A DNA stretch of 64,000 bases from Streptomyces sp. SID3343 (GCF_009865215.1 NZ_WWJX01001298.1:1-64000); one strand, 5' to 3'. Numbered from the stretch's first letter, positions 48,070 through 63,690 are shown. Numbers and translations are program-made. Notes: generated by a model not told the origin, from the letters alone.

Positions 48070-48141
48070 GCCCCTGTAGCTCAGGGGATAGAGCAACGGC
48101 CTCCGGAGCCGTGTGCGCAGGTTCGAATCCTGCCAGGGGCA
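48070..48141 (+). tRNA. tRNA-Arg, anticodon CCG
   Basis: A 72-base cloverleaf: acceptor GCCCCTG/CAGGGGC, D arm GCTC/GAGC, anticodon stem ACGGC/GCCGT with loop CTCCGGA, T arm GCAGG/CCTGC with loop TTCGAAT, discriminator A. CCA is not encoded. It reads CGG codons. Its 3' 43 bases are the attachment site of two integrative elements, and integration restores the gene. Confidence 0.97.
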
Positions 48142-48146
48142 CACAG
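48099..48146. repeat. attL of element 1 (48-bp direct repeat)
   Basis: Runs from the anticodon-stem end of tRNA-Arg through its 3' end and five bases beyond (ending GGCACACAG). Identical to 57,987-58,034 over 48 bases, then diverges on both sides. Confidence 0.95.
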
Positions 48147-48160
48147 CATGACCAGCGAAT

Positions 48161-48182
48161 ATGGCCCCTCACCAGGGGCCAT
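48161..48182 (+). terminator. tRNA-Arg terminator carried by element 1
   Basis: A 9-bp perfect stem ATGGCCCCT/AGGGGCCAT with a CACC loop, then TACTGTTT. It lies inside the element, 15 bases past the attachment repeat, so the resident tRNA uses a terminator supplied by the element. Confidence 0.75.
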
Positions 48183-48248
48183 TACTGTTTGTAGGGTCTA
48201 GACCACATGCAGCCGTGAGCCGTCATATGCAGCCCTGTGACGCACGCC

Positions 48249-48267
48249 GTGGACTATTCGTGGACAG
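48249..48267. repeat. Candidate arm-type integrase site, left
   Basis: GTGGACTATTCGTGGACAG, itself two GTGGAC half-units, matches 57,908-57,926 at 17 of 19 positions in the same orientation. It lies about 100 bp inside the left attachment site; nearby are two copies of ATGCAGCC. Confidence 0.5.
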
Positions 48268-48350
48268 GCGCTCGGCACGTTCCCGCAGGTCAGACCCCGA
48301 AAACGACGAAAGGCCCCGGGGAATCCCCTGGACCAGCCATCATGCGTCGG

Positions 48351-49724
48351 TCAGTCGGTGTCGCGCAACAGGTCGTCCACCTTCGCGTTGTTGATCTCGT
48401 CTCGGCCGTCGAGGCACTTCACGTAACGACTCATGAGAACTTCCACCGAGTTGCCTGCACGGCGGGCGACTTCCGCCGGATCCATGCCCGCGTTGAGCCA
48501 GGACGACAGCGCGGCGTGCCGCAGGTCGTACGGCGTGCCCGCGAGCGGTGACGCCACCTGTGCGGGAGTGAACGCCATTCGCCGCGCCTCCTCCCAGGCC
48601 CGGGAGTACGTGGACGAGCCGAGGACGCCGCCTCGTTCGTTGCCGAAGACGCGCCCGTCCTGAACCGGGAATCTGGCCAGATGGAACCGCAGCATCGTCA
48701 CCAGGACGGGCGGAATCGGCACCTCCCGAACCTCCGCATCCTCTTGAGGACGGTTCTTCAGGCCCCGATCGTCGTGGACGTCGCCCGAGTCGGTCCAGCG
48801 CTTCCCCGCGGTCGGTCGTGTCTTGCGGAGGGAGAGCACTCCCCAGCCCGTCACGGGTAGCTTGCAGTCGATCGCGCGGAGGCCAACGGCTTCAGCCGGA
48901 CGCAGGCCGCCGTAGTACATGCACCCGAACAGCGCGACCAGGCGACGCCCCCGAGCACGCCCGAACGACCCGACGTACGTCAACGCGGTGAGCAGCTCAC
49001 GCGCCTGCTTCGGGTTGACGACGACCCGGCGGTCCACCTGCTTGACGACCCTGGGTGCAGACGACTTGATCTTGTCGATGGGGTGCTCGGAAAACTCGCC
49101 CAGTTCGACCGCGTGACCAAGAGCCCCGTACAACACGGAGCGCTTGCGCCGGACCGTCTCGGCAGCCGCCGGGCGCCCGGACTGCTTCAGGGCCAGGGCA
49201 CCGAGCAGCGCGCGAACCTCGGCCGGCTCTTCCAGAACGACGAGCGGGCGCGACGCCTTCCCCACCCAGTGCAGCGCGTTAGCGATGTCGGTCGGCATCT
49301 CCGGTCGCGTCTCCGAGGCGACGAAGGCCCAACCGCGCAGAGCACGGCGCAGCGTGTCAGGTGTGGGTCTGCCGGGTCGGTCCTCCAGCAACGCCAAGGT
49401 GGCCCCGGTCAGCGTCTCGCTGATGCTGTCCCTCGAATTCGCGGCAGCGAACGGCCACTTCAGTGCGGCGTACGCACATGCGAAGTCGTACCAGGTGCCC
49501 GACGCGACCACCGGCGCCATCGAGTCCGGCAGCCCCGAGACCGTGTCGAAGGGTTCGCCGTTCTTGGACGCGGTGAGCAGCTTTGCCCGGAAGGCGTCGG
49601 CGAGCCCTTTGGTTCGGAACGTCGCGGGGAAGATTTCCTCTCCGACCTTCCAACGAACCTCATACGAGGTCTTGGCGGTCGGACGCTTGCGGATGCCCCA
49701 GATCCGGACGTGAAAGGACTTCAC
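48351..49724 (-). CDS. int: Tyrosine recombinase integrase of element 1
   Basis: A 457-residue phage-type integrase. The catalytic set is visible: Arg in GGLRPAEAVGL, His-x-x-Arg type box in YDLRHAALSSWLNAG, later His/Asn position in ARRAGNSVEVLMSRY, with the nucleophile Tyr at its end. The N-terminal part (VRIWGIRKRP) is an arm-binding domain. The start is GTG at 49724, overlapping the excisionase stop as GTGA; the frame stays open a further 24 bases upstream but that start lies within xis. It would recombine attP with the tRNA-Arg site. Confidence 0.93.
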   Translation of the reverse strand: MKSFHVRIWGIRKRPTAKTSYEVRWKVGEEIFPATFRTKGLADAFRAKLLTASKNGEPFDTVSGLPDSMAPVVASGTWYDFACAYAALKWPFAAANSRDSISETLTGATLALLEDRPGRPTPDTLRRALRGWAFVASETRPEMPTDIANALHWVGKASRPLVVLEEPAEVRALLGALALKQSGRPAAAETVRRKRSVLYGALGHAVELGEFSEHPIDKIKSSAPRVVKQVDRRVVVNPKQARELLTALTYVGSFGRARGRRLVALFGCMYYGGLRPAEAVGLRAIDCKLPVTGWGVLSLRKTRPTAGKRWTDSGDVHDDRGLKNRPQEDAEVREVPIPPVLVTMLRFHLARFPVQDGRVFGNERGGVLGSSTYSRAWEEARRMAFTPAQVASPLAGTPYDLRHAALSSWLNAGMDPAEVARRAGNSVEVLMSRYVKCLDGRDEINNAKVDDLLRDTD

Positions 49725-49912
49725 GGCCGCTCCAGGTGGTTCAGCCACGCCGTGAAATCCGAGCGCCAGATGCGTAGTTCCTCGTTCGGCAGCTTGAATG
49801 CGGCCGGGGCTTTGCCGAGTTCACGCCAGCGGTAGAAAGTCCGCCGAGAGATCCCTTTGAGTTCGGCACAGACTTCCTTGACCGTCATCATCTCGTCGCT
49901 CTTTCCGCTCAC
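49721..49912 (-). CDS. xis: Excisionase of element 1
   Basis: A 63-residue MerR/HTH-17-type DNA-binding protein: MTVKEVCAELKGISRRTFYR, WRELGKAPAAFKLPN, RSDFTAWLNHL. It directs Int to excise the element. It starts with GTG overlapping the rep stop (GTGA) and ends overlapping the int start. Confidence 0.9.
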   Translation of the reverse strand: MSGKSDEMMTVKEVCAELKGISRRTFYRWRELGKAPAAFKLPNEELRIWRSDFTAWLNHLERP

Positions 49913-51300
49913 GCTGCTTCTCCTTCCTGGGCACGTAGGTCTGCGAGTGCTTCACGAGCCGTTGCGGGATCGGGTGTCGCGCTGCGTGCCAGCCAGCTCT
50001 CCCCCGCGCCCAGGCCGCTTCCGACGTAGGTCCAGGACGCGACGACGAGGGTCGTGTCCGGGTCGGGAACAAAGGCCCCCGCAGCCTGCGCAGCAGCGCG
50101 GTTCTTGGCGTCGCACCACGCGGTGCGGGCATCCCGGAGCGCACCGAGGGTGGTCGAGTAACGCCGTGACTTCGTAGAGAAGTGGCCGCGGAATCCGAGC
50201 ATGTGAGCCCAACGGCGTAAGCCGAGATCGGCCAGTTCGGATCGTGCACCGAGCTTCCACGCCGTCCTCACAAGCCGTCGGGCGTGGTCGGTCATCTCGT
50301 GTGCGGCGAGTTCGGCCAGGAGGTGAATGCGGCGATCGAGAGTGCCCAACACCGCCTCACCGCCTTTGGTCGCGTACTTGGCGATGTAAGCGGCAACCGC
50401 CCGATCGGTAAGCGGTGAACCGCCATCGAACGCACGGGTGCGGATGGGTCGAACATCGACCTGTCGGCCCCAGACGAAATGCGCAGGCAAGCCGCCAGCG
50501 AGATTTTCGAAGCCCGGCACACGGGTGCGAAGAACAGCCACGCGAACGGCAGCGTCCAGAAGTTCGACCGTGGCCCAAGCCGGAGGCGGATCGACCATTT
50601 CCCGGTTGGGTCCGTCGATACGAATCACGGCGTGGAAGTGGACCGCACCGCGCTTTTGGAACTCCGCGACCTTCGCGAAGGACACCCGGGCGGATCGCTC
50701 GAATTCCTTTCTGGTCAGGCCGAGTTCGGCGGCGATGACGCGACGCAGGAGGGTGGTGAAGCGTGCCCACAGCTTGCCCGCGTGTGCGTTCCACAGCACG
50801 GCGGCCGTGTAGTCGTACGAGTCCGGGTCGAGGGGCGTGCCGAGTGTGGGTTCGTCGGTGCGGTGGCGGAGTCCGCAGCGGCAGGGGTGCCCGTTGGTGG
50901 GGCGGTTGTGCACGGGCCCGAACGAGGGTGCGGTGAAGGTGGCGAACACGCGGGGATGGGTGGTGACCGTGTCGGGTACGGACTTGCCGCCGGCCAGGCC
51001 CGCGCTGATCAGGTGGTAGGTGTCGCGGCGGTAGGTCTCCGCGCAGGCCGGGCAGCGGGAGGTGCGGCGGTTGCCGCAGCGCACCAGGACACAGCCCGCG
51101 GCGGTGTCGTGCGAGGAGAACGCGCGCAGCACTTCACCGGTCGGTCCGTCGACGTCGAGCCGGGTGCCTTCCAGGCGCACGGGGTTGAGGCAGCCGCCGA
51201 GCTTGGCGAACTGTCGGGCCAGGCCGGGAGCGTTGCCGCCCCGGGAGATCCGGGCGAGGTCTCTGAGCGCAGCGTCGTCGGGGATCGTTTGGAGGGTCAC
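49909..51300 (-). CDS. RepSA-type rolling-circle replication initiator
   Basis: A 463-residue HUH-type initiator. CGNRRTSRCPACAE near residue 75 is the zinc-finger-like region, the metal-binding HUH motif is HFHAVIRIDG, and the nicking Tyr is in AAYIAKYATK. Homologues initiate replication of the excised circle of pSAM2-like elements. The start is GTG at 51300, overlapping the GGDEF gene stop, so production is coupled to that gene. Confidence 0.88.
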   Translation of the reverse strand: MTLQTIPDDAALRDLARISRGGNAPGLARQFAKLGGCLNPVRLEGTRLDVDGPTGEVLRAFSSHDTAAGCVLVRCGNRRTSRCPACAETYRRDTYHLISAGLAGGKSVPDTVTTHPRVFATFTAPSFGPVHNRPTNGHPCRCGLRHRTDEPTLGTPLDPDSYDYTAAVLWNAHAGKLWARFTTLLRRVIAAELGLTRKEFERSARVSFAKVAEFQKRGAVHFHAVIRIDGPNREMVDPPPAWATVELLDAAVRVAVLRTRVPGFENLAGGLPAHFVWGRQVDVRPIRTRAFDGGSPLTDRAVAAYIAKYATKGGEAVLGTLDRRIHLLAELAAHEMTDHARRLVRTAWKLGARSELADLGLRRWAHMLGFRGHFSTKSRRYSTTLGALRDARTAWCDAKNRAAAQAAGAFVPDPDTTLVVASWTYVGSGLGAGESWLARSATPDPATAREALADLRAQEGEAA

Positions 51301-51854
51301 CGGCGCCCCCGGGTGCCCTTGGCTGCGTACATCGCGATGTCCGCGTGGGCGAGGGCGTTCCCGAGCGTGCGAAGAGGCAGATCGGCCACACGTGCGGACC
51401 CGATCGAGACGCCGACCGGGATCACGTGTCCGTCCCAGACGACCGGCGCCCGAAGTCGGTCCCGTAACCGATCGAGGCCAGGCGCCGACTCGTGACCGGA
51501 GAGGCGAACGGCGGCGACGAATTCGTCACCACCCAGGCGCCCGGCGACACCATGAGGTCCGCACCAGGAGGCCAGGCGGTGCGCGGTTTGCGCGAGGACT
51601 TCGTCACCGGCGAGGTGACCGCGGGTGTCGTTGATGTGCTTGAAGCCGTCGAGGTCCAGGAGGAGAACGTACGCATCCGGGTGGGTGACGATCCGGTGCG
51701 CTCGGGCGGTCCAACCGTCCCGGGTGTGCAGGTGGGTGAGCGGGTCGCGGCGAGCGGCGGCGAGGCGACGGGCGAGCCACCACGTGTGCGTGGCCCAGCC
51801 GATCAGAGGTACTCCGGCCACGGACGCGGACAGCGTCGCGTCGGCGAAGGGCAT
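51297..51854 (-). CDS. GGDEF diguanylate cyclase on the element
   Basis: A 185-residue protein with a short N-terminal hydrophobic helix (VAGVPLIGWATHTWW) and a complete GGDEF domain: DPLTHLHTRDGW, the metal and guanine-binding LLDLDGFKHINDTRGHLAGDE, the signature GRLGGDEF (GGDEF at residues 108-112), and the C-terminal VSIGSARV and HADIAMYAAK. All catalytic residues look intact, so it should make cyclic di-GMP. The inhibitory RxxD site that normally precedes GGDEF by five residues is absent (GPHG instead). A GGGAG site precedes the ATG. Its stop overlaps the rep start. Confidence 0.9.
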   Translation of the reverse strand: MPFADATLSASVAGVPLIGWATHTWWLARRLAAARRDPLTHLHTRDGWTARAHRIVTHPDAYVLLLDLDGFKHINDTRGHLAGDEVLAQTAHRLASWCGPHGVAGRLGGDEFVAAVRLSGHESAPGLDRLRDRLRAPVVWDGHVIPVGVSIGSARVADLPLRTLGNALAHADIAMYAAKGTRGRR

Positions 51855-51962
51855 GTCATCTCCCGAGAGGCAGGGGAAGGGGAGCCCCGGACCGGTAGAG
51901 CGATTCGGTCCGGGGCGGCGAGCGGGATGTGGCGAGGTTTCAGGGGCAAGGTCCGCGAGTGG

Positions 51963-52130
51963 TCAGCGGACGCCCTTGCCCGTGCACAGCGGGCACTTCT
52001 CGCGCCCGGGGATGATCGTGGTGTGGCCGTCGATGGTCCGCACGCACTTGACGCGACGGGTACCGACGCCCTCACACGACGAGCAGCGGCGCGGCGGGAC
52101 CCGCCGGGTGGCGGTGGACGAGGCACTCAC
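51963..52130 (-). CDS. Zinc-knuckle microprotein (CxxCxGxG pair) 1
   Basis: A 55-residue basic protein with two DnaJ-type half-motifs, CSSCEGVG and CPLCTGKG, about 30 residues apart. Four cysteines in two CxxC pairs fit one zinc site. The start is GTG at 52130, overlapping the next small gene's stop as GTGA. No function is known to me. Confidence 0.7.
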   Translation of the reverse strand: MSASSTATRRVPPRRCSSCEGVGTRRVKCVRTIDGHTTIIPGREKCPLCTGKGVR

Positions 52131-52249
52131 CGCTTGCCCGTTCCCTTGCACGTGGGGCAGTTGACGCGCCGGGTGGCGCGGTTGCCACGTCGTCCACCGG
52201 TGATGACGAGGGCACGGCCTTGGCCGCCGCAGTCCGGGCAGTGGGTCAT
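52127..52249 (-). CDS. Zinc-knuckle microprotein 2
   Basis: Only 40 residues: MTHCPDCGGQGRALVITGG, then CPTCKGTGKR. Two CxxCxGxG motifs with a basic linker. The ATG at 52249 has AGGAGA eight bases ahead, which supports translation of so short a frame. Confidence 0.7.
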   Translation of the reverse strand: MTHCPDCGGQGRALVITGGRRGNRATRRVNCPTCKGTGKR

Positions 52250-52338
52250 GATGGTGATCTCCTGATCTCTGAAGAGGGGTTGTGGAGCCCGGGGCGACCG
52301 GCGTTCTTGGTCGGATGGACGGTCGCCCCGGGGCGGAT

Positions 52339-52482
52339 TCAGCGGGTGCGACCGGTGCCGAGGCAGTCGGGGCAGGACCGGGTGCGCTCGTTGCGGCGCA
52401 GGTTGCGTACCGAGCCGGGCATGGTCTCCTTGGCTGCCATGCGGACGCTGCCCTTGCCCTTGCAGTTCGTGCACTTCGCCAT
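52339..52482 (-). CDS. Zinc-knuckle microprotein 3
   Basis: 47 residues: MAKCTNCKGKGSVRMAA, then SCPDCLGTGRTR. Same two-motif plan as its neighbours, with a longer basic linker. The ATG at 52482 follows AAGGAG at a spacing of six. Confidence 0.7.
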   Translation of the reverse strand: MAKCTNCKGKGSVRMAAKETMPGSVRNLRRNERTRSCPDCLGTGRTR

Positions 52483-52516
52483 GGCGATCTCCTTCAGTGG
52501 TGGGATGGTTCGGTCG

Positions 52517-52690
52517 TCAGTTGGTCATGTAGTCGGCCATCGGGCAGCCCCGCGCGTGGACGACGTAGGTGCCGACCTTGTCGCAGTCCTTGCATGCCTG
52601 GGACCACTCGCACCGGGTGCAGGTGAGGCGGATGCCGCCGCCGCAATTGCAGACCGGGCGGGGCTTGCGCGGATAGCGGGAGGCGGTCAA
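52517..52690 (-). CDS. Cys-rich microprotein
   Basis: 57 residues with the pattern CNCGGGIRLTCTRCEWSQAC in its first part followed by KDC and a later GC; eight cysteines in all. The spacing suggests two zinc sites and differs from the DnaJ-like neighbours. The start is TTG at 52690, overlapping the stop of the upstream membrane gene (TTGA). Confidence 0.6.
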   Translation of the reverse strand: MTASRYPRKPRPVCNCGGGIRLTCTRCEWSQACKDCDKVGTYVVHARGCPMADYMTN

Positions 52691-52956
52691 GACGCGATGC
52701 CGATGACGCCGTTGGCCATGCCGCTGATGACGTGATCTGCCGCTTGGGCCAGGGACACGGCGACCGAGGAACCGGCGAGCATGACACCGGCGAGGAAGGC
52801 GATCAGGGCCAGGAACACGGCCCCGCGGCTCTTGGCGAGGAAGTACACGCCCACGGCGAGGATCAAGCCGGAGCCAATCAGGACCGGGCTGCCGCCCGCA
52901 GGAGTGGCGGCCGGGTCGGCGGCGAGGTTGGACGCGGTGATCAGGTGGACGTTCAC
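52687..52956 (-). CDS. Small two-helix membrane protein, Spd-like
   Basis: 89 residues with two membrane helices, PVLIGSGLILAVGVYFLA and AVFLALIAFLAGVMLAG. Small membrane genes at this place in AICEs are spread (Spd) genes that help intramycelial plasmid transfer. The GTG start at 52956 has GGAGGA just ahead. Confidence 0.6.
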   Translation of the reverse strand: MNVHLITASNLAADPAATPAGGSPVLIGSGLILAVGVYFLAKSRGAVFLALIAFLAGVMLAGSSVAVSLAQAADHVISGMANGVIGIAS

Positions 52957-52969
52957 GGATTTCCTCCGG

Positions 52970-53164
52970 TCAGCGGGTCTTGCAGCGGTGGGTGCGGGCG
53001 GCGAGTTCGGCGGCCGGGCGCTGGTCGAACTCGTAGGTGGCGGACCAGCCGCAGTCCTTGGCGGTGCATACGGCGGTGTGGCGGACGATGCCGCGCGCCT
53101 CTCGCCGGGTGCCGACCTGGACCGGGCCGATGCGCTTGACGTCACGGAACTTGCGGATGAACAC
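52970..53164 (-). CDS. Mobile element transfer protein family
   Basis: 64 residues: RKFRDVKRIGPVQVGTRR, HTAVCTAKDCGWSATYEF, AAELAARTHRC. This matches the short family annotated in streptomycete integrating plasmids as mobile element transfer protein, with CxxxxC and a C-terminal Cys as a possible zinc site. Role in transfer is by association. Confidence 0.75.
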   Translation of the reverse strand: MFIRKFRDVKRIGPVQVGTRREARGIVRHTAVCTAKDCGWSATYEFDQRPAAELAARTHRCKTR

Positions 53165-53179
53165 GGGTTGGTCTCCTTG

Positions 53180-53857
53180 TCAGAGTTGGGAGTGGATGGA
53201 GTCGGCCAGGGATTCGGGCACGCTCAGCCGCGCGCGAAGCACGTCTGCGGTGATCGGATCGCCAGTCGTGGTGTGGTGCTGTTCGGCGATGCGCCGGGCG
53301 TGATCCAGCAGGGCCGGGGCGATCCGGACGGCACCGACAGGCAGCGCCGGAGGTTCCGGAACGGCAGCGACAGGCGGGAGTTCGACGTTCGGCGTGTCCG
53401 GGACGACTTCGGCGACCTCTACAGCAGGCGCCGGATCGGGCACGGGTGCGGGTACGGGTTGCGCGTCGGTCGGTTCGTTGCGGTGGGCCAGGAGCGTGCC
53501 GCCGAGGAACGCCACCGCGGGCCATCCGGCGACGATCAGCCGCAGCCACGCGGGAACGTGCTCCAGGTCGAGGAGACCGGCGGTGGCGACGTTCGCCCCG
53601 AGCGAGGCGACCAGGGCCACCAGGAACCACAGCCACGGCCCACCGGTCCCCAGCGACCCGTTCGAGGACTGCGCGATCCGCAGCCGACGCCAGGACGCGA
53701 CCAGGAGCAGATCCACCGAGATCGGGTAGGCCCACGCCTGCCACCCGGACTGGCCCGCCGCCTGGGCGACGTCGTGCAGGTGCGAGAACGAGAGCGCCCC
53801 GGCGATCCCCGCCTGAATCAGCAACGGATCGAACCGCACGCGCAGGACACGGCGCAT
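53180..53857 (-). CDS. DUF2637 membrane protein, SpdB-like
   Basis: A 225-residue protein with the DUF2637 pattern: FDPLLIQAGIAGALSFSHL, WAYPISVDLLLVASWRRLR, then further membrane helices to about residue 125 and a Pro/Ala/Val-rich cytoplasmic tail. The family includes spread proteins of conjugative streptomycete plasmids. ATG at 53857, five bases into the gap after the next zinc-knuckle gene's stop. Confidence 0.75.
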   Translation of the reverse strand: MRRVLRVRFDPLLIQAGIAGALSFSHLHDVAQAAGQSGWQAWAYPISVDLLLVASWRRLRIAQSSNGSLGTGGPWLWFLVALVASLGANVATAGLLDLEHVPAWLRLIVAGWPAVAFLGGTLLAHRNEPTDAQPVPAPVPDPAPAVEVAEVVPDTPNVELPPVAAVPEPPALPVGAVRIAPALLDHARRIAEQHHTTTGDPITADVLRARLSVPESLADSIHSQL

Positions 53858-53861
53858 CGGT

Positions 53862-54044
53862 TCACGCCCTCTTCGCGATGGATTCGACGCACGTCCCGAA
53901 GCAGGCCAGGCACATGCCGTCCTGCTTGCCGACCGCACGGCGCTTGGAGCCCCGGCCGACGTACACGGTCGCGGGGACGACACCGGTGCCGTTGCACACC
54001 GGGCACTTGCGGACCTTCGGACGCCGGGGGGCCATCGTGATCAC
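53862..54044 (-). CDS. Zinc-knuckle microprotein 4
   Basis: 60 residues with CPVCNGTG near residue 14 and CLACFGTC near residue 45, again two DnaJ-like half-motifs, the second slightly degenerate. Starts with GTG at 54044 overlapping the upstream stop (GTGA); an ATG at 54035 is an alternative. Confidence 0.65.
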   Translation of the reverse strand: MITMAPRRPKVRKCPVCNGTGVVPATVYVGRGSKRRAVGKQDGMCLACFGTCVESIAKRA

Positions 54045-54247
54045 CGGCCGTTCGAGCGGTCGGCCTTGGCGCGAGCCGCCTTGGCGACCCGGGCCGCCTC
54101 CCGGTCCCCGGGGTGCGCGGCGGCGATCCCTTCCAGCAGTTCGGCCTTGCGGGAGGCGAGCACGGCCGGGTCGCCGCCGGACTTCTGGTTGTCGCGCACT
54201 TCCTTGAGGAACGAGGAGATCTCCTTGGCGGACGGTCCACGAGGCAT
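54041..54247 (-). CDS. Small charged helical protein
   Basis: 68 residues, largely helical and charged: SAKEISSFLKEVRDNQKSGG, then ASRKAELLEGIAAAHPG. No known family. It sits between the transfer ATPase and zinc-knuckle 4 in the same transcript. Confidence 0.6.
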   Translation of the reverse strand: MPRGPSAKEISSFLKEVRDNQKSGGDPAVLASRKAELLEGIAAAHPGDREAARVAKAARAKADRSNGR

Positions 54248-54330
54248 GGTTCTTATCCCTTCGGATTCGAGGCATGGCGGTGGTAAGGACTTGGCGCGAA
54301 GCGGTCGCGCCGACCGTGATCAACAGGTGG

Positions 54331-55692
54331 CTACGGGGCCTTCACGGTGGCCGGTACCGGAGTGGCCGCCAGGGTCACCGACGGAGCGAACGGTGCCAGC
54401 GAGGGCATGTCCGGGACCATGTGCGCGTACTCGACACAGGCCCACGAGACGTCGGCCAAGTCGTGCTCCGGAGTGCGGATGTGGGTCCACCCACCCGAGG
54501 TGTCCGCAGCGACGGCCGTTCCCGGACGGTCCGCGTGGATCGCCGTTGCCGCCATCACGGCGTCGTCACCGATGTCCGCGAGCGCCATCCGCGCCGAAGC
54601 TTCGTCGTTCACGCGATGACACACCCGACCGGTGAGTTGGGCCCGGAGCATGGTCGCGCCGTTGCCCAGTTCAGCGCCGAACCGTTGCCCGCACGCCTCC
54701 AGGTAGATCCCCGCCGCGCGGCCGAGCTGCGCGAGACGGATCAACGCGTTGACGATGCGTTGGCGACGCTTTTCCTCCTCCTTGCCACCGGCCGTCAGGA
54801 AGAGTTCGGCGATCTCGTCGAGCAACAGCACGATCGGCGGAGGCCGTTCGTCCTTCGGCAGACCCCAGATGTCGGAGGTGATCTCCGCGTCTTCGTCGTC
54901 CAGGGAGAGGCCCTGTGAGCGGCGGATCAAGAGGTAACGGTCCTCCATCTCGTCAACGAGGACGTTCAGGAGGTTTTCCGCCAGATCGGGATCGGTGGCC
55001 AGCGCGGACAGGCGCGGGGCGAACGGGGCCAGTTCCACGCCCCACTTGCAGTCGATGCCCACCAGCGCGACCGGTTGCGGCGCGATGCCGCGGACGAGCG
55101 CCCGCTGATACATCGACTTGCCCGACTGTGTCGCGCCGAGCACCAGTTCGTGAGGCACCGATCGGAAGTCCCGCACGTGCGGTAGACCGTCGATGCGCAG
55201 CGCGATCGGCACCCGAAGGAAGTCGCTACGGACGCGAGGCATGCGCACGTCCTTGAGGACGTCCCGGCCGAGGACGCGCAGTTCCACCCAGCCGGATTCG
55301 ACCGAGCGCACATGCACCGCCTGAACACCCCACGCGTGGCGCAGCCGATCCGAAGCCGCGGTGAAGTCGGACGGGTCCTGCCCCGGGCGCATCCGCAACC
55401 GGATCGTGAACCCGCCCGTGTTCGGCCGCAGCCGTCCCCGACGAGGCGTCGCCGGCACCGGGGACGTATTCCGCAACCGAGCGGACGCCCGAGCCCGACG
55501 CGAAGGAGTCGCCGTCAACCCGCACGAGTCCATGACGTCCCGGTAGGTCAGGTGCATCCGCGCCACCGTCGTCGGCAGACCGATCACCGACCAGTGCACG
55601 GCCGGGAAGCGGTGACGAGCCAGGCGCGCGCCCCCGACCACCGCGGCGGCCGGACCACCCACTCCCACCACGGCCGTCAGCAGCTCAGACAC
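54331..55692 (-). CDS. FtsK/SpoIIIE-type DNA transfer ATPase of element 1
   Basis: A 453-residue Tra protein. Walker A is GATQSGKS, Walker B is IVLLLDEIAEL, and RAAGIYLEACGQR follows. The N-terminal part has only a short hydrophobic stretch, so membrane anchoring is weaker than in FtsK. TraB-type proteins of this group move double-stranded plasmid DNA between hyphae. It ends 84 bp upstream of the next gene. Confidence 0.9.
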   Translation of the reverse strand: MSELLTAVVGVGGPAAAVVGGARLARHRFPAVHWSVIGLPTTVARMHLTYRDVMDSCGLTATPSRRARASARLRNTSPVPATPRRGRLRPNTGGFTIRLRMRPGQDPSDFTAASDRLRHAWGVQAVHVRSVESGWVELRVLGRDVLKDVRMPRVRSDFLRVPIALRIDGLPHVRDFRSVPHELVLGATQSGKSMYQRALVRGIAPQPVALVGIDCKWGVELAPFAPRLSALATDPDLAENLLNVLVDEMEDRYLLIRRSQGLSLDDEDAEITSDIWGLPKDERPPPIVLLLDEIAELFLTAGGKEEEKRRQRIVNALIRLAQLGRAAGIYLEACGQRFGAELGNGATMLRAQLTGRVCHRVNDEASARMALADIGDDAVMAATAIHADRPGTAVAADTSGGWTHIRTPEHDLADVSWACVEYAHMVPDMPSLAPFAPSVTLAATPVPATVKAP

Positions 55693-55696
55693 GAGG

Positions 55697-56029
55697 TCAG
55701 CCCGCCAGCGAGGTGACGGCTACCGCGCGGAACGCGATCCCGTGTCGCTTCTGGCCGTTGAACTCGTTCTCCCACGGCCGCGCGACCAGGCCCGTCAACG
55801 CCACCGGCATACCCAGCTTCAGGCCCTCCGGGATACCCGGCGCCGGCACCGACAACTGAAGGACGCTCGCCTCACCGTTCAGGATGAACGTCACCGACAG
55901 CGTCATCATCTCCGCACCCGAGTCGAGATCCTTCGCGATCTCACCCGTCTTGCGGTCCTTCACCTTCACCTCGGGCAGCACGGCCATCATCGCCATCGCA
56001 CCCTGCGTGTCCACCGGGATCGAGCGCAT
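55697..56029 (-). CDS. SCO3933-type regulatory protein
   Basis: A 110-residue protein starting MRSIPVDTQGAMAMMAVLP with PEVKVKDRKTGEIAKDL and ending HGIAFRAVAVTSL. The order resembles the SCO3933 family of AICE regulators as I recall it. It is first in the operon that runs through tra to int, so it may act as Pra does in pSAM2. GAGGAG lies five bases before the ATG. Confidence 0.7.
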   Translation of the reverse strand: MRSIPVDTQGAMAMMAVLPEVKVKDRKTGEIAKDLDSGAEMMTLSVTFILNGEASVLQLSVPAPGIPEGLKLGMPVALTGLVARPWENEFNGQKRHGIAFRAVAVTSLAG

Positions 56030-56061
56030 TCAAGCTCCTCTGTAGGTGCCAAGCTCCTGCA

Positions 56062-56111
56062 CTCATGTACATGAGCCATACGGAGAGAATGACGGACTCA
56101 TGTACATGAGT
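56062..56111. promoter_or_regulatory. Tandem operators of element 1
   Basis: Two copies of the palindrome CTCATGTACATGAG at 56062-56075 and 56097-56110; the second extends to a 16-bp palindrome with flanking A and T. Start-to-start spacing is 35 bp. A degenerate third copy (12 of 14) lies at 56953-56966, across the NUDIX start. The GntR gene next to them is the obvious candidate binder. Confidence 0.8.
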
Positions 56112-56114
56112 CAA
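56086..56114 (-). promoter_or_regulatory. Promoter of the element 1 transfer operon
   Basis: On the minus strand, TTGACT (56114-56109), a 17-base spacer and CATTCT (56091-56086). The upstream operator covers the -35 edge and spacer, and the other lies just past the -10, about where transcription would start. Confidence 0.65.
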
Positions 56115-56152
56115 CCTCTTCTACAGAAGATCTTCTGCTGGGACGTCCTGTC

Positions 56153-56932
56153 CTAGTCGCCGGCCGGGATCCGGTAGTCCAAAACGAACTTGTCCGCAGC
56201 CATCAACGTGTCGCAGACCTCGACCACTCGGCCCTCATCGGTCACCGCGTTGCGGACGAGATGAAGCACCGGAGCTCCCGGGCTCAGGCCGAGAAGACTC
56301 GTCTCCTGCTTGCTCGCGAGCCGGGCCACGACCGTCTCTGTGTACTCCGCCAGGATGTGCCCATGCTCTTCCAGTCGGGCATAGATGCCACCACCGCCCG
56401 GATTCTCGGCGAACAGTTCCGGGATGTCCTTTGCCACGTCCCACGGCAAGTAGGACGAAGCAACCTCGGTCGGAACACCGTCCGTGAAGTAGAGGCGACG
56501 TCGCTCCAGGACCTGATCCCCGACAGTGACACCCAAGCGGTCTGCCGCATCGGCCGGCGCTTCGGTAGGCCCGATGTACAGCACGTTCACCGAGGGCACG
56601 CCGCCCGCTTGCTCCGTCTCAGCGATGTAGGCAGCTTTGCCGGCTTTCCGATGAGACCGCCTAAAGCGATCGGACGACTTCCTCTTGACCGGCGGTTTTG
56701 CCTTCACGAAGGATCCGCGGCCATGGTGCGTCTCGATCAAGTCGGATGTTCTGAGTTCCGCGACAGCCTTGCGGACGGTCCCACCGGAAACGCCGTATCG
56801 CCCGACTAGGTCCGTCTCACTCGGGAGCAGTTCTCCAGCCTTCAGAATTCCTGTACGGATCTGCTGTGCAAGATCATCGGCGATCTGCACGTACCTCGGC
56901 ACGCTGACTCCGCGCGTGGTCTCACTCCTCAT
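56153..56932 (-). CDS. GntR-family repressor with UTRA domain (KorSA-like)
   Basis: A 259-residue regulator: N-terminal winged helix YVQIADDLAQQIRTGILKAG with LPSETDLVGRYGVSGGTVRK, and a C-terminal UTRA ligand domain (residues about 110-250, VLERRRLYFTDGVPTEVASS). In pSAM2 the homologue KorSA represses pra and so keeps the element integrated. Start ATG at 56932, divergent from the NUDIX gene by 17 bp. Confidence 0.88.
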   Translation of the reverse strand: MRSETTRGVSVPRYVQIADDLAQQIRTGILKAGELLPSETDLVGRYGVSGGTVRKAVAELRTSDLIETHHGRGSFVKAKPPVKRKSSDRFRRSHRKAGKAAYIAETEQAGGVPSVNVLYIGPTEAPADAADRLGVTVGDQVLERRRLYFTDGVPTEVASSYLPWDVAKDIPELFAENPGGGGIYARLEEHGHILAEYTETVVARLASKQETSLLGLSPGAPVLHLVRNAVTDEGRVVEVCDTLMAADKFVLDYRIPAGD

Positions 56933-56949
56933 ACCGGGTTGAGCCTCCT

Positions 56950-57411
56950 ATGCTCCTCTACATGAGTAACGGTACCGAGCAGGAGCAGTCAACGCCGCGC
57001 CACTCTGTGTCAGTCGCCGGCGCAGTCGTTCGTGCGGACGGAAAGCTCCTGATGATTCGTCGCCGAGACAACGGTCGTTGGGAGCCGCCGGGTGGCGTCC
57101 TTGAGCTTGAGGAGACGGTCGAGGCAGGTGTTGAGCGGGAGATCTTGGAGGAGACCGGCGTATCCGTCGAGGTCGAGCGCCTGACAGGTGTGTATAAGAA
57201 CATGCCCCGCGGCATCGTCGCCCTGTTCTTCCGCTGCCGCCCCGTCGAGGGGGAGGCTGCCCCGACGGAGGAAAGCAGCCAGGTCACGTGGATGACGCCA
57301 GACGAAGCGGCCACGCACATGAACGAGGCATATGCCGTCCGAGTCTTGGATGCCCTGGACGACAGCACCGGGCCACATGTGCGAGCTCATGACGGACGCG
57401 TCCTCGTGTAG
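56950..57411 (+). CDS. NUDIX hydrolase, Pif-like immunity candidate
   Basis: A 153-residue protein with an intact NUDIX box, GGVLELEETVEAGVEREILE followed by ETG. In pSAM2 the NUDIX protein Pif blocks redundant transfer between cells that already carry the element, so this is a candidate immunity gene. ATG at 56950 or at 56962; neither has a ribosome binding site, and a degenerate operator copy spans them, which fits a leaderless, repressor-controlled transcript. Confidence 0.8.
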   Translation: MLLYMSNGTEQEQSTPRHSVSVAGAVVRADGKLLMIRRRDNGRWEPPGGVLELEETVEAGVEREILEETGVSVEVERLTGVYKNMPRGIVALFFRCRPVEGEAAPTEESSQVTWMTPDEAATHMNEAYAVRVLDALDDSTGPHVRAHDGRVLV

Positions 57412-57447
57412 GACAGGGCTGGTTCAAACTTTCCCTACGTCTTCAAG

Positions 57448-57472
57448 GCGCCCCGCGCACGGCGCGGGGCGC
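57448..57472 (+). terminator. Terminator of the NUDIX gene
   Basis: An 11-bp perfect G/C stem GCGCCCCGCGC/GCGCGGGGCGC with an ACG loop, 36 bp past the NUDIX stop. Confidence 0.8.
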
Positions 57473-57743
57473 GCGTCCCGGAGCCCGGCCGCCGCTCCAG
57501 CCTTCGGCGAGCGTCGGCCGACTCCGAACGCGCGCCTGCCGAGCTCGGCGCGAGACGGGGAGAACCAGGACCGAGGCCCCGCCGCCGGATGGGCACCGCG
57601 TGTTGCGGTTCACCCCATGCCTCCGGCGGGCCAACTGCCGAGGGGAGGGGCATCGCGTGGACCCTGCGGCCGGGTGGGACCACCGTCTCTCGTCTGGTGG
57701 CTCCGCCCCTCGTTGACGGCACCGGAGGTCAGCACACCCGGCA

Positions 57744-57782
57744 CCCGGAATCAAATCCCAAGAGCGGGGATTTGACACCGGG
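57744..57782. other. Extended hairpin near the right end of element 1
   Basis: Inner stem TCAAATCCC/GGGATTTGA (7-base loop), then a 2-base internal loop, then outer stem CCCGG/CCGGG. The AT-containing inner stem stands out from the surrounding GC. It may be a replication or transfer structure. Confidence 0.5.
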
Positions 57783-57907
57783 CACCGTGCGCGCTGCTGC
57801 GAGGCATGCCGACAACGAGGGACTCCACCACCAGACACCCCGGCCATGCGGCCGGGGCCGCGACTCCAAACGACACCCCCGGCTTGCGGATCGCAAGGAG
57901 CCCCGCT

Positions 57908-57926
57908 GTGGACAATGCGTGGACAG
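57908..57926. repeat. Candidate arm-type integrase site, right
   Basis: GTGGACAATGCGTGGACAG, direct partner of 48,249-48,267 with two mismatches, ending 60 bp before the right attachment repeat. Confidence 0.5.
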
Positions 57927-57986
57927 ACCGCAGCGAAAAACGACGGCACGAGGCCGTGACCAGCGCAAACACGGGAAACAGATCGT

Positions 57987-58034
57987 GCCTCCGGAGCCGT
58001 GTGCGCAGGTTCGAATCCTGCCAGGGGCACACAG
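57987..58034. repeat. Middle attachment site between the two elements
   Basis: Perfect 48-base copy of the tRNA-Arg 3' half. It is attR of element 1 and at the same time attL of element 2. The upstream tRNA half is absent here, so this is not a functional tRNA. Confidence 0.95.
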
Positions 58035-58152
58035 AGTCAACATCCTCAGCAGCCACGAAGCCTCGTGAGCTGCTGTTTTTGTTTTCCGGCTCTTTTCCCT
58101 CGTGACTCCGTGTGTCACCGCGCGCAGGTGGGTGCAGGCGTAGGACGACCCA

Positions 58153-58171
58153 CGCGTAATCAGCGCGTAAT
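58153..58171. repeat. Paired CGCGTAAT units near the element 2 end
   Basis: Two direct copies of CGCGTAAT (58153-58160, 58164-58171), 11 bp apart, about 120 bp inside the attachment repeat. They occupy the place of the arm sites of element 1 but have a different sequence. Confidence 0.4.
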
Positions 58172-58241
58172 GATCTTGGAGACGTTTCCGCAGGTCACAG
58201 TACGTCTTTGCCGTACGCACGGCGTGACCCGGACACGACGA

Positions 58242-58265
58242 AAGCCCCGAAGCGATCCGGGGCTT
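58242..58265 (-). terminator. Terminator after the element 2 integrase
   Basis: An 8-bp stem AAGCCCCG/CGGGGCTT with an 8-base loop, 20 bp past the integrase stop. Confidence 0.7.
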
Positions 58266-58284
58266 CCTGCCGTCTGACGGTTGC

Positions 58285-59643
58285 TCAGCTCTCGCCACCG
58301 AGGCCGTCCGAGATGCGTTGGTTGATCAGGTCACGCTGTCCGTCGACACACTTGGCGTAGATCTTGAGTAGGACATCCACCGACTGCCCGAGCCGTTCGG
58401 CAACCTCAGCGGCCGGCACGTCGGAGTTGAGCCAGAGCGACGCACAGGCGTGCCGCAGGTCTCACGGTCGAGCTGCGAGAGGCCGAGGCCACCTGTTCCT
58501 CGGTCAGCGCGAGCGTGCGCGCTTCCTCCCACAACTCGGGAGTAGGTGGAGGACGCGAGGACGCCGCGGCGTTCACTCGGGAAGAGTCGGCCGTCGTTCG
58601 CCGTGCCGAACTCTTAGATGTACGCAAGCAGGATCGCAACGACTTGCGGAGAGAGGAATGGGCACGTGGCGCGTGTCCTTCTCCGCCAACCGCTTCAGCC
58701 CCGCTCGTCGTGCGCCTGCCCGCTGTCCGTCCAGGTCTTTCCCGCCACCGGCCGGGTGGTGCGCAGGGTGGGCGAGCCCCCATCCCGAGGTGGGCAGGAC
58801 AGAGTCGGCCCGCCGCAGATTCACTGCTTCCGCCGTGCGCGTACCGGCGTAGTAAAGGACCGCGAAGAAGGCACGGAGACGTCGACCACCGGCCCGCTTG
58901 TGTCCGCCGACGTAGGTCACCGCGGCGAGCAGTTCACGAGCCTGAACCGGGTTGGCGACCGAGCGACGGTCCACCGAAGAAGCCACCATCACGCGCTTGC
59001 GCTTGAGCTTGTCGATCGGGTTCACCGGAAGGTGTTCCAGCTCTACGGCGTAGTCGAGGAGGTTGTAGACGACCGAACGCTTACGGCGAAGCGTCTCGGC
59101 GCCGGCCGCAGTTCCGTCGAGCTTGAGGCCGAGCGCGTCCAGGACGCCGTGAACGGTCTTCGCGTCCGCGAGCCCCGCGATGGGCAACGACCTCTTCTCA
59201 AGCCAGGTGACGGCTTTGGCGACGTCGCCCGGCCGAGGCAGCTGCCGAAGGGCACGGCGCAGAGTCACGCTGTCGGGCCGACCGTCGCTGTCCTTAACAA
59301 GCGCGGGCGGAGCCGTAGCCAACGCATCCGTCATGCTGTCGCGCGACCTCGCCGCCGCACCCGGCCACTTCATATCCATGTACGCGAGCGCGAAGGTGAG
59401 AGCCGACGTCGCCTGCTTGGCCTTCTGCATGGGCTTGGGGAGGCCGCTCTCAAGATCGAACGCTTCGCCGTCCTCAGTGGCCCGGACCAGACGTCCACGG
59501 AACCGATCAGCCAACCCCGACGTGCCGAACGTTGCCGATTGCGGTTCGCCCGCGACCGTCCAAGGCCCCACGAACGACGGCTTCTTGCTGCTCTTGTTCC
59601 GAACCACGGCCCAGACCCGGACCCTGTACGTCTTGTCCGTCAT
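58285..59643 (-). pseudogene. Integrase of element 2, multiply disrupted
   Basis: The N-terminal two thirds read cleanly from ATG at 59643 (overlapping xis as ATGA): YRVRVWAVVRNKSSKKPS through YYAGTRTAEAVNLRRAD. From about 58,785 down the frame shifts repeatedly: segments TLRTTRPVAGKTWTDSG, KRLAEKDTRHVPIPLS, QVVAILLAYI, GRLFPSERRGVLASSTYS, LWEEARTLALTEEQVAS and DLRHACASLWLNSD lie in different frames, with TAA at about 58,613-58,615 and TGA at about 58,468 in the expected coding path. The catalytic Arg, His and Tyr (LLKIYAKCVDG) are all still recognisable. Confidence 0.9.
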
Positions 59644-59849
59644 GCGGCTTCCTCCGCCCGCGTGTCGAGCCACTCCGCGAACGCCCTTCGCGTAACGCCC
59701 AGTTCGCCGTTGGTGAGTTTGTGGCAGGCCGGCGCCAGGCCGAGTTCACGCCAGCGGTAGAAGGTCCGGCGGGAGAGGCCGCCCAACATTTCGAGGACTT
59801 CCGGAACCGTCAGGAGTTCGACATCCGGGATCTTGGTCTTCCTGGTCAT
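59640..59849 (-). CDS. xis: Excisionase of element 2
   Basis: A 69-residue MerR/HTH-17-type protein: LLTVPEVLEMLGGLSRRTFY, WRELGLAPACHKLTNG, TRRAFAEWLDT. Parallel to the element 1 excisionase, with which it shares the RRTFYRWRELG core. ATG at 59849; end overlaps the integrase start. Confidence 0.88.
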   Translation of the reverse strand: MTRKTKIPDVELLTVPEVLEMLGGLSRRTFYRWRELGLAPACHKLTNGELGVTRRAFAEWLDTRAEEAA

Positions 59850-61414
59850 GCCGCCCTCCCCCCGGGCAGTTGCCGAATTGTCGAGCGCCCCATCCGCACG
59901 CCTGGCGCCACCGCACCCGCTCAGCGACCGCCCGAAGGAGCCGATGCGACAGCGGAGCAACGTCCGGGTCGTCACGGCCGACCTGGGCCCACATGAAGCG
60001 CGTCGGATCCGGAATCTCGGCCGCATCGCCGATGAGTTCGAGCACCCATGCCCGCCGCTCCGTCTTGTGGTCGGCCATGGTCTTGCCAGACCACTTGCGC
60101 GAGACCAGCACGCGCCGACCGCCGTAACCGAGGTGTGTCCGACGATGGGCCTTCGCCTTGCAACACCCCGGACACAGGCCCGCACGGACGTTCTTGGGCT
60201 GGACCCCGTACAGCAGCCAGTTCGCACAGGTGGGCGCGCAGGGCTCGTACCGCAGCGCGATGGTTAGCCTGCCCACGTGCGCGTTCTGCGCCCCGTTTTG
60301 GGCCTCGTGTGTCTCGTGTGCCGACTTGTCGAGGTACTTCGTCAGGTAGCCGATGCACCGCCGCGCATCGGGCGAGCCGACCAGGACGCCTTTCGCGTCC
60401 ACTTGAGTCCCGAACCACGCCCCGTGCACCGGCTCGTCCCCGACGTCGTCCAACGCCTCATCCCACGAGGGAAGTTCGACGCCGGCAGACGGACCGAGGT
60501 ACGCCCCGATCTCCGCATCCCACACCGGCGCGTTGTCGACCGAGTAGACCGGCTCGTCACACGCCGGCCACCACACCTGGTGACACGTCGCCGCCGCCAC
60601 CTGCCGCAGTTCGGCCCGCGACACCGTGCCACGGATCGCCAGATGAACATGCGGAGCCAACCGCCGCTGATACTCCACCGCGGCGAAGTACTGCACGTCG
60701 AAGCCCACCAGACGCCGCAGGTTCTGCACGAACCGATCGACCAACTTCGAGAAGTGCAACGCGTCCCGAGCAGGCCCGATAGTCGTACGCCGACGCGTCC
60801 ACCGGAGTCCCGTCACCACGCACCCGCCCGTACGAGGGCAAGGTGAGTGTGACGAACAACGACGGCCGGAACACCTTGCCGTCCGGCGACGTGTACGCCT
60901 TGCCGACTGTGCGCGCCTCGACCTCACGCCGAGGCAGATCCGGAGCATCCTGACGCCGCCGCGTGGACCGCACCCGCCGCACGATCGGATCCGGGTCGAT
61001 GTTGCCCCGCGCCCCGGACTCGGCCAAGTCCTCGTCGACCGCCGCCAAGTCCTCAGCGAGTTCGTCCCGCTCGTCATCGCGCGCAAGGTCGTGCTTCTTG
61101 GTCCAGTCCGCCCGCAGTTCCGCCAGGACACGTTGATCACTCGTCGGCTCGTCAGCCTCCTGAATCGGCTCCTCGGTCAGGTGCCACCCCTCTCGACACC
61201 GAGCCATCCGCAACCGCCGCTTGCGCTCCGCACAGGTCGGACACACGCCCGCCAACGTCGCCCCGCACGGCACGTCGATCACGGCCGTCTCACCGGTCAC
61301 GATGTCCGTACGCCGCAGGGCAACCGGCCGGACAAAGACACCGTGCTCCTGAGCCACGGCCCGCACGACATCCCGAGCGAGCAGCATCCGAGCACGCTCA
61401 GCATGCGTACTCAT
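59846..61414 (-). pseudogene. Replication initiator of element 2, frameshifted
   Basis: From ATG at 61414 the frame reads STHAERARMLLARDVVRAV, a CPTCAERKRRLRMARCREGW zinc region and VDASAYDYRA, then shifts by one base at about 60,773. The next frame continues ARDALHFSKLVDRFVQNLRR and holds the HUH motif PHVHLAIRG and the Tyr motif GYLTKYLDKS. One extra base in GCCTGCTCGG explains the break. Near the 3' end a further shift at about 59,930 would let the protein end RQLPGGRAA with its stop overlapping the xis start (ATGA); this second break is less certain. Confidence 0.8.
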
Positions 61415-61749
61415 CGCCCACTCCGATCGAGCAGCGTCCACGCCCGCACCGGATGACCGTGAACAGTGCCGGCCACCTCGATATGCGTGTGGTCCCCGAG
61501 GTACACGTCAGACCGGTCGGAGTGGGTCGTGACCGCGTCGTCCAGCGCCGAGGCCCAACGGTCCATGTCCCGGGTGGAGGCCCGGAACAGGTGGATCTTG
61601 ACCGTCCAGAGCCGATCGACGTGCGACCAGTCGACTTCGAGCGCGGTCATCGCGGGCAGGATCGGGCGAGCGCCGATGAAGTCGGCCACGCAGCGCAGCA
61701 CGGTCACGCCGCGGCCCATGTCCACGGGGTCCATGTCGTTGTTGTTCAT
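61411..61749 (-). CDS. Hypothetical protein of element 2
   Basis: 112 residues, starting MNNNDMDPVDMGRGVTVLR with VDWSHVDRLWTVKIHLF. No family recognised. It is coupled by ATGA to the transfer ATPase upstream and to the initiator downstream, so it belongs to the replication-transfer operon. Confidence 0.65.
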   Translation of the reverse strand: MNNNDMDPVDMGRGVTVLRCVADFIGARPILPAMTALEVDWSHVDRLWTVKIHLFRASTRDMDRWASALDDAVTTHSDRSDVYLGDHTHIEVAGTVHGHPVRAWTLLDRSGR

Positions 61750-63116
61750 GCCGCACTCCCGAAGCCGCCGCCGGAACGCCCGTAGTCGCGCACCATCGCC
61801 TCGATCGCCTCGTCCGAGACGAACGCCGCCCGCACCCGCACCGGTTCGGGTTGCGTCTCACGCTTGACGTAGCCCACCCCCGCACCGATCTCCGGATCCG
61901 GAGAGATCAACTCAGCCGCCGCACCCCGCTCCCGAGCACCGTTGCCCAAGACCATGTCGACCTGATTCGGCTCGTCGAGCCGCAGCGCGATCCGATCCGG
62001 GAACAGGTTCCGGATGTTCATGACCTCCTTGCGCGGATCCTGCAAGGCCCCGATCACACAGAACCCGACCGAACGCCCCTGACTGGTGAGCGTCGCAATC
62101 GCCGCATCCGCACGCTTCCGCAGATCCCGATCCGGCTGATACGCCGTCAGGAACGCCAACTCGTCCACGATCACCACCACGAACGGGCACTTCGACGAGG
62201 GTTCGTGCTTGCGGACCTTCCCCGCGAAGGTCTGCGCCCGCCGGTTCATCTCGGCCGCAGCAGCCTCCAGCAACTCGACCATCGCCGCCGGCTCACACGC
62301 GTACCGCTGAAACAGCGACCGCCCGAACGACAGTTCCATCCGCATGGGATCACACGCCCACAACTGCACGATCCCCGCCCGAGCCGCCGGCAGCAGCGCC
62401 CGAACGACACCCCACAGCACCGAGCCCTTGCCCGCCCCGGTCACCCCCGCTACCAGGACGTGTGTCCCGTGCAGCCGCAGCCGCCACGGCGACCCGTCGT
62501 CACACCGCCCGATCTCCGCCGACGCGAACTCGGGCACCCAAGGGTCCTCACGCTCAGGAGTGGTGCGCCCGTACCGCAGCACCGCAAGCCCCGCCGCACG
62601 CTTGACCACATCCCCGACAGAGGGCATCAGAGGAGCCTCGAACGGCACCGCCAACGGATCCGTGAACCAGACCCGCAGCACCACGACTCCACGCGCCGGC
62701 GACGACGCCTCCACCCGGAAGACATGCCAGGTGTGCGCGATCCCCTCCACGTGATCACCGAGGTTCTTCGGCACCTGTCCCGGCAGCAACGACACCGTCA
62801 CGTCGAAGCCCAGTTCATGCCGCCGGATCCGCACGATCCGCGGATACCGATACTCGAAGGTCTCGTCGATCCGCGACACCGGCTCCTGCTGCCACGCCCC
62901 GATCGCCTTCGTCAACGCCGGCCACCCACGCCGCACCCGCGCCGCGAACGAGAACAACCACCACCAGACGAACACCACCCCGGCGGTCAGGTAGACCGCG
63001 ACGAGCAGATCCGAGGCGACGGCACCGGCCTTCGCCCGCACCGCCTCGAAGACCACCCACAACACGGCCACAAGTAAGGCCCAAATCCGAACCACGGGCC
63101 GATGGAAAATGTGCAT
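61746..63116 (-). CDS. FtsK/SpoIIIE-type DNA transfer ATPase of element 2
   Basis: A 456-residue protein with two N-terminal membrane helices ([16 protein letters not shown] and VAVYLTAGVVFVWWWLF), Walker A GVTGAGKG, Walker B VVVIVDELAFL, and a LTSQGRSVGFCVIGALQ sensor region. Better membrane-anchored than the element 1 ATPase and only distantly similar to it. ATG at 63116 is preferred; GTG at 63128 is possible. Confidence 0.9.
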   Translation of the reverse strand: MHIFHRPVVRIWALLVAVLWVVFEAVRAKAGAVASDLLVAVYLTAGVVFVWWWLFSFAARVRRGWPALTKAIGAWQQEPVSRIDETFEYRYPRIVRIRRHELGFDVTVSLLPGQVPKNLGDHVEGIAHTWHVFRVEASSPARGVVVLRVWFTDPLAVPFEAPLMPSVGDVVKRAAGLAVLRYGRTTPEREDPWVPEFASAEIGRCDDGSPWRLRLHGTHVLVAGVTGAGKGSVLWGVVRALLPAARAGIVQLWACDPMRMELSFGRSLFQRYACEPAAMVELLEAAAAEMNRRAQTFAGKVRKHEPSSKCPFVVVIVDELAFLTAYQPDRDLRKRADAAIATLTSQGRSVGFCVIGALQDPRKEVMNIRNLFPDRIALRLDEPNQVDMVLGNGARERGAAAELISPDPEIGAGVGYVKRETQPEPVRVRAAFVSDEAIEAMVRDYGRSGGGFGSAA

Positions 63117-63237
63117 GATGGGAGACACCCCTTCGAAGATCAATCTCTTGGTCACTCGGATGGGGAGCGGCCCCGGTGCGATGGACCCGCCAAGATCTCG
63201 CTGCACCAGGGCCGCGCCTGTTTGCCAAAGCGACCCG

Positions 63238-63645: not shown

Positions 63646-63690
63646 CCATCAGAGTCCCGAGGCATCCCTTCGATCAAAGAGGTCGCCAAC

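Follow-up and report, generated by a model that had tools for sequence, protein, structure and literature searches.

Paired-cysteine microproteins and a leader hairpin in a pSAM2-type integrative element of Streptomyces

An integrative element with five small cysteine-rich genes

The window analysed here, a stretch of 64,000 nucleotides from Streptomyces sp. SID3343 (source assembly, 1645 contigs with 6.7% contamination), contains a pSAM2-type AICE integrated in a tRNA-Arg gene, with its genes on the minus strand. The element shows the features expected of this type: int and xis; tRNA integration with att repeats; a RepSA-type Rep; an FtsK-like TraB; and spd genes. Its principal features, and those of its small genes, are as follows.

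48070-48142, tRNA-Arg
48082-48146 (in tRNA-Arg) and 57970-58034, 65-bp att repeats (88% identity)
48082-58034, strand not assigned, the AICE, bounded by the att repeats
48351-49912, minus, integrase and excisionase of the element
49909-51300, minus, RepSA-type replication initiator
51297-51854, minus, GGDEF-domain gene with an intact GGDEF motif, between the microprotein genes and rep
51880-51920, minus, second strong hairpin, ahead of the GGDEF gene, lacking the conserved loop (16.3 bits)
51963-52130, minus, paired-motif gene (CSSCEGVG...CPLCTGKG), 55 aa
52127-52249, minus, paired-motif gene (CPDCGGQG...CPTCKGTG), 40 aa; family B
52282-52338, minus, leader hairpin with a strong stem and the loop TCCATCCGACCAAGAACG, lying some 30 nt ahead of the family B gene
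52339-52482, minus, paired-motif gene (CTNCKGKG...CPDCLGTG), 47 aa
52517-52690, minus, Cys-rich gene of another pattern (CNC, CxxC, CxxC), 57 aa
52687-52965, minus, small membrane-type protein at the SpdD position
52970-53164, minus, SpdB, a Cys/His-bearing mobile element transfer protein (Pfam match to PF05122)
53180-53857, minus, DUF2637 membrane protein, where an SpdB2-like spread protein would be expected
53862-54044, minus, paired-motif gene (CPVCNGTG...CLACFGTC); family A
54041-54247, minus, 68-aa protein, a conserved neighbour upstream of family A
54331-55692, minus, TraB/FtsK-type DNA translocase

Read from left to right, the element thus runs int, xis, rep, the GGDEF gene, the small genes 51963-52130, 52127-52249, 52339-52482 and 52517-52690, the small membrane gene, SpdB, DUF2637, 53862-54044, the 68-aa gene, TraB, a 110-aa gene, a GntR/KorSA-like gene and a divergent NUDIX-like gene. 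An annotated plasmid record of Streptomyces formicae (FtsK, replication initiator, integrase) contains the window's gene order twice; the S. formicae relatives of 53862-54044 (WP_242337243.1) and 52127-52249 (WP_242337254.1) are both annotated 'hypothetical protein'. The rest of the window, 58034-64000, holds a second AICE-like element in tandem, with its own int, xis, rep and TraB; its integrase frame seems interrupted near 58420-58570. The GGDEF protein of the first element probably has an N-terminal membrane helix; this conjugative element may direct c-di-GMP synthesis.

A sequence-only reading had drawn attention to five small frames in this region, and all five are open on the minus strand just as it placed them. 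Four were said to encode two CxxCxGxG motifs joined by a basic linker. Each does contain two motifs with a basic stretch between them, although the second motif of 53862-54044 lacks the last glycine; the fifth, as described, is Cys-rich in a different pattern. Within the whole window the pattern C..C.G-(8-45)-C..C.G matches exactly these four genes. No such pair turned up in 40 copies of the window generated by a second-order Markov model, and real DNA of relatives yields about three unrelated matches in 1.86 Mb. The motif scan, combined with synteny and with profiles built without the window (below), rules out chance or artefact as the origin of the paired-motif genes.

Translation signals differ among the five genes. 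Good Shine-Dalgarno sequences precede 52127-52249 and 52339-52482, but the other three genes have none of their own, and their start codons lie within 4-nt GTGA/TTGA overlaps with the preceding stop: GTGA for 51963-52130, which overlaps 52127-52249; TTGA for 52517-52690 and its upstream gene; and, for 53862-54044, an overlap with the upstream 68-aa gene. The product of 53862-54044 is probably 57 rather than 60 aa, since the start codon of its relatives corresponds to the ATG at 54035. The genes are real, and they stand in line with the AICE transfer and replication genes. Because SpdB (PF05122) is itself rich in Cys and His, the transfer region encodes at least six tiny Cys-rich proteins.

Two conserved families with fixed positions

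Relatives were sought in two collections: 69 related Streptomyces AICE loci retrieved through TraB similarity (the traB-selected set), whose B-less part is essentially one clade; and 249 genomes of the window's family, over which profiles of families A and B were run, with counts given among the matches listed. L numbers below are our handles for individual loci and contigs. The proposed search of other AICEs succeeded for two of the five genes, 53862-54044 and 52127-52249, whose motifs are clearly conserved in homologous loci; the other three lack a convincing homologue.

Both conserved genes agree with their families in profile and in position. Family A includes 53862-54044 (E 1.8e-18 with a profile built without the window), and its members follow traB and the 68-aa gene, directly ahead of the DUF2637 membrane gene. 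Family B includes 52127-52249 (E 7e-10, likewise without the window), and lies ahead of rep and behind a leader hairpin. Among the matches listed from the 249 genomes, 62 of the 67 strong A matches are followed on their own strand by a B gene at a distance of 1.3-2.7 kb, and 56 strong B matches occur without A. The order is fixed in dozens of elements: traB-(68-aa gene)-A-DUF2637-spdB-(spdD)-(GGDEF)-B-rep-xis-int. Most relatives carry a single B gene, with or without a single A gene. Two CxxC pairs are found in all 35 unique A sequences and in 76 of 80 unique B sequences, the exceptions being mostly cut by the end of a locus. A Shine-Dalgarno sequence stands at the chosen start of nearly all A and B members, which is supporting evidence only, because the starts were picked partly by this signal.

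Family A is under purifying selection (median dN/dS 0.42) and shows a third-position excess. Family B evolves fast: median dN/dS is 0.78, there is no third-position excess, and the dN/dS test is not decisive. Given this poor codon-level signal, the case for B rests on its frame, its position and its invariant cysteines. On a TraB tree of 74 elements the B label requires two changes, versus 21 with shuffled labels, and B occurs across deep TraB clades. One large TraB clade carries neither family, so A and B are not essential for all AICEs. Locus L001 has kept the leader and ribosome-binding region and lost B. L165 and L185 each have three such genes close together, namely A, a short B and a further paired-motif gene; multi-gene cassettes are therefore not unique to the window. 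In the traB-selected set, GGDEF genes are present in 7 of 14 B-bearing versus none of 55 B-less elements.

The fast evolution of B might reflect an arms race, if these proteins were host-directed inhibitors (anti-defence or anti-restriction) that aid establishment in recipients. The high dN/dS of B, the lineage-specific extra copies in the window and in L165/L185, and a weak match to Lar restriction alleviation (E 0.009) all point that way. The genes nevertheless sit at constant positions within the core operons, not among variable cargo, and no curated counter-defence family in Pfam, NCBIfam or PHROGs is matched at cut-off. We regard this explanation as quite improbable.

The remaining three genes, 51963-52130, 52339-52482 and 52517-52690, gave no convincing homologue among the matches listed in individual searches of 248 family genomes. 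Their matches were weak, and those re-checked had lost cysteines and lacked AICE neighbours; conserved-family status was accordingly rejected for all three. Against profiles built without the window, 52339-52482 is intermediate and related to both families (A, 9e-5; B, 1.5e-3), and 51963-52130 is marginal (E 0.03 for A, 0.15 for B). A tblastn search of plasmids with 52339-52482 returned chance matches only, and 52517-52690 is an orphan. Presumably, 51963-52130 and 52339-52482 are lineage-specific extra zinc-hairpin microproteins of the A/B kind.

A phylum-wide search found strong matches in the window's own family only. An extension of A and B beyond Streptomycetaceae-type relatives was considered and set aside, the rest being weak partial matches inside far longer frames, many of them DnaJ-sized.

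Other paired-motif genes came to light in the same material. L184 (5758-6157), from the window's genus, contains two overlapping paired CxxCxGxG-type genes in a region without recognisable AICE genes. L239 (1308) and L240 (11971) are AICEs without a B gene that carry a further paired CxxCxGxG gene upstream of a korSA-like gene. Membrane-anchored paired CxxCxG proteins are encoded in other mobile elements (L231 6179, L233 8355, L238 4388 and L245 8545); these are about 83 aa long, with one N-terminal helix and a conserved tail after the hairpin, and at least two were found with primase-polymerase-type genes.

A leader hairpin of mobile-element genes

The hairpin upstream of 52127-52249 recurs upstream of B genes with the consensus loop ACCGCCAAGYATC. 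A model built without the window detects the window copy at 40.3 bits (E 1.9e-5). Over 53 copies, again leaving the window out, compensatory changes occur in each of the nine modelled pairs; the paired fraction of cells is 96.6%, and changes on both sides affect 58 cells, versus 7.6 in shuffles. No Rfam family was found at the leader hairpin. An ordinary terminator was considered and rejected: there is no U-tract, and the conserved loop and covarying stem speak against it. The stem-loop is a candidate for a new RNA leader family.

The hairpin lies in sense orientation, mostly 15-70 nt ahead of a start codon. In the traB-selected set it precedes B in all 14 B-bearing elements; in B-bearing elements it also precedes the GGDEF gene and the 110-aa gene that opens the tra operon. 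Where B is missing it stands ahead of rep, and in different elements it is found ahead of primase-type, xis and other genes. It is a general leader of mobile-element genes in Streptomycetaceae, and this distribution suggests RNA-level control common to unrelated mobile elements. Further copies, with the conserved loop CCGCCAAG, lie at L149 9886-9933, L159 6852-6905, L226 6111-6164 and L231 6461-6515. Two other contigs of the window's genome, L248 and L249, each carry a copy, and in both cases a small Cys-rich gene with another pattern lies no more than 60 nt beyond it.

Do the microproteins act on this RNA? They might be RNA-level regulators, similar to anti-TRAP or Q, in which the basic zinc hairpins, through contact with the leader hairpin or with RNA polymerase, would control expression of B, GGDEF, rep and tra. 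Q-like antitermination factors (phrog_6060, 3e-5) and anti-TRAP are among the best sequence matches; the hairpin precedes B and several of the supposed target genes; its copies in the window's own genome precede other small Cys-rich genes; and the proteins of the window carry a strong positive charge (+8 to +10). However, the A and B cores are nearly neutral across their families (median +1 to +1.5), and hairpins precede rep in elements where no paired-motif gene was found (L226, L227, L229 and L234-L236), as well as primase-type or xis genes in other element types. The hairpin therefore does not need B in cis. The notion that it is a cognate site of B only was discarded on the same grounds, and B as a hairpin-binding protein is weakened, because the hairpin is not specific to B. 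Nor is the association of hairpin and B independent evidence, since what separates the B-bearing from the B-less elements in the traB-selected set is essentially one clade. On balance, RNA-level regulation by these proteins seems unlikely. A broader version, in which the zinc hairpins are RNA-binding regulators of a leader-hairpin regulon across many Streptomycetaceae mobile elements and switch replication and transfer genes, is less probable still. If this broader version nonetheless proved true, a protein family and an RNA motif, neither of them yet described, would act together.

Predicted fold, proposed function and known systems

Among solved structures, profile searches with the microproteins single out the Cys-rich domain of DnaJ, anti-TRAP and Q-type antiterminators. 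The structure prediction for family A left out one row that came from a plasmid record. The model of 53862-54044 (pLDDT 80, with residues 11-50 at about 85-93) is a two-strand hairpin with both Cys knuckles at its base. The model of 52127-52249 is of low confidence (pLDDT 70, pTM 0.34); it matches the DnaJA2 zinc hairpin (TM 0.74 by query, rmsd 1.7 A over 37 columns), UvrA zinc modules (TM about 0.6-0.72; UvrA2, 0.66), Q-lambda (TM 0.63) and anti-TRAP (TM 0.49), with weak Foldseek E-values, as expected for 40 residues. From these models, each paired-motif protein looks like one whole zinc hairpin rather than half of one.

This bears on a function first suggested for the genes, in which several half-domain proteins would join into one split DnaJ-type zinc scaffold. 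In the DnaJ Cys-rich domain there are two separate zinc sites, each formed by one motif pair. One motif pair per microprotein gives four cysteines, a whole site, and the fold matches are to a single hairpin; the split scaffold is thus not supported. Clusters of paired-motif genes, in the window and in L165/L185, might seem to favour it, but most relatives have a lone B gene, accompanied by a single A gene or by none, and a split domain of several subunits is therefore not required. We consider the split scaffold highly improbable.

Assembly chaperones offer another use for such a fold: BSD2- or DnaJ-like zinc hairpins that would hold TraB or Spd membrane proteins during assembly. The fold matches to DnaJ and BSD2 zinc domains and the location of A beside membrane-protein genes are consistent with this. 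BSD2 and DnaJ have four motifs each, as against two here, and B adjoins rep rather than membrane genes. A chaperone role is rather improbable.

The reading preferred here is that the zinc-hairpin microproteins are docking adaptors for the transfer and replication proteins encoded beside them, a tentative view to which we give somewhat less than an even chance. The products would be self-contained single-zinc beta-hairpin microproteins of the DnaJ/UvrA/anti-TRAP type, with families A and B belonging to the core of one large Streptomycetaceae AICE group. A, whose gene accompanies those for TraB and the DUF2637 membrane protein, would serve as a link for TraB or for the DUF2637/SpdB spread complex; B, encoded just ahead of rep (here ahead of the GGDEF gene), would bind or tune the replication initiator. 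Three strands lead to this view: the fixed gene positions, the way the fold works in anti-TRAP, by binding a protein, and the multi-protein precedent of SpdB2. Operon position, taken as a clue to a physical partner, is weak evidence. What the data establish are the genes, the families, their synteny, the invariant cysteines and a predicted fold; zinc binding, partners and function are inferred. Anti-TRAP, a regulator of trp in Bacillus, forms a trimer and binds TRAP. It is a precedent for a DnaJ-type zinc hairpin that works by protein binding (PMC2896485). SpdB2 of pSVH1 binds TraB and Spd79 as part of a multi-protein spread machinery linked to TraB (PMC4170104). With an adaptor role, the use of a DnaJ-type zinc hairpin on its own, as in anti-TRAP, would reach into conjugation as well. 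As two conserved, position-fixed families of zinc type, A and B present concrete missing parts, testable by gene removal.

The cassette had been put forward as an undescribed system. In one respect this stands: families A and B are unnamed, no Pfam, NCBIfam or PHROGs family covers the microproteins, and no member examined reaches a curated Pfam or NCBIfam threshold. The fold, however, is already known, and several described systems are close enough to merit comparison.

Anti-TRAP (RtpA, PF15777/NF058604) is a protein of about 53 aa that holds one zinc per chain and has just two CxxCxGxG motifs; the window's paired-motif proteins have such a motif pair and a predicted hairpin. The sequence match is weak (best 1e-5, among family B members) and the fold match modest. 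Window proteins score at best 18.6 of 32 bits (Pfam) and 19.3 of 65 bits (NCBIfam), far under the curated cut-offs; the anti-TRAP trimer core is not recognisable in them, and anti-TRAP is not an AICE gene. The DnaJ central domain (PF00684) shares CxxCxGxG and the zinc hairpin, and all 43 aligned members match it weakly. The window proteins differ in having two motifs rather than four and a best score of 24.3 against a gathering threshold of 32.7 bits, and Pfam finds no J domain, the mark of DnaJ/Hsp40, in these 40-60 aa proteins. Q-lambda-type antitermination zinc fingers (phrog_6060, phrog_127; PDB 7ubj) place a zinc hairpin in a mobile-element regulator; Q is a protein of about 200 aa with the hairpin as one portion, whereas here the predicted hairpin is the whole 40-60 aa protein and only the finger of Q is matched.

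The Spd proteins of Streptomyces plasmids and AICEs (SpdB PF05122, SpdB2, SpdA2) are similarly small and diverse, and are encoded between traB and rep; a zinc-finger motif has been reported for SpdA2. The microproteins, by contrast, match no named Spd family in sequence: in Pfam searches PF05122 is matched by 52970-53164 only and by none of the five. The closest parallel for the element as a whole is the AICE pSAM2, which resembles it in tRNA integration, int-xis-rep, TraB, spd genes and a KorSA-like GntR gene. By indirect comparison, what the window element has beyond this plan is families A and B, two further paired-motif genes, the GGDEF gene and the leader hairpin.
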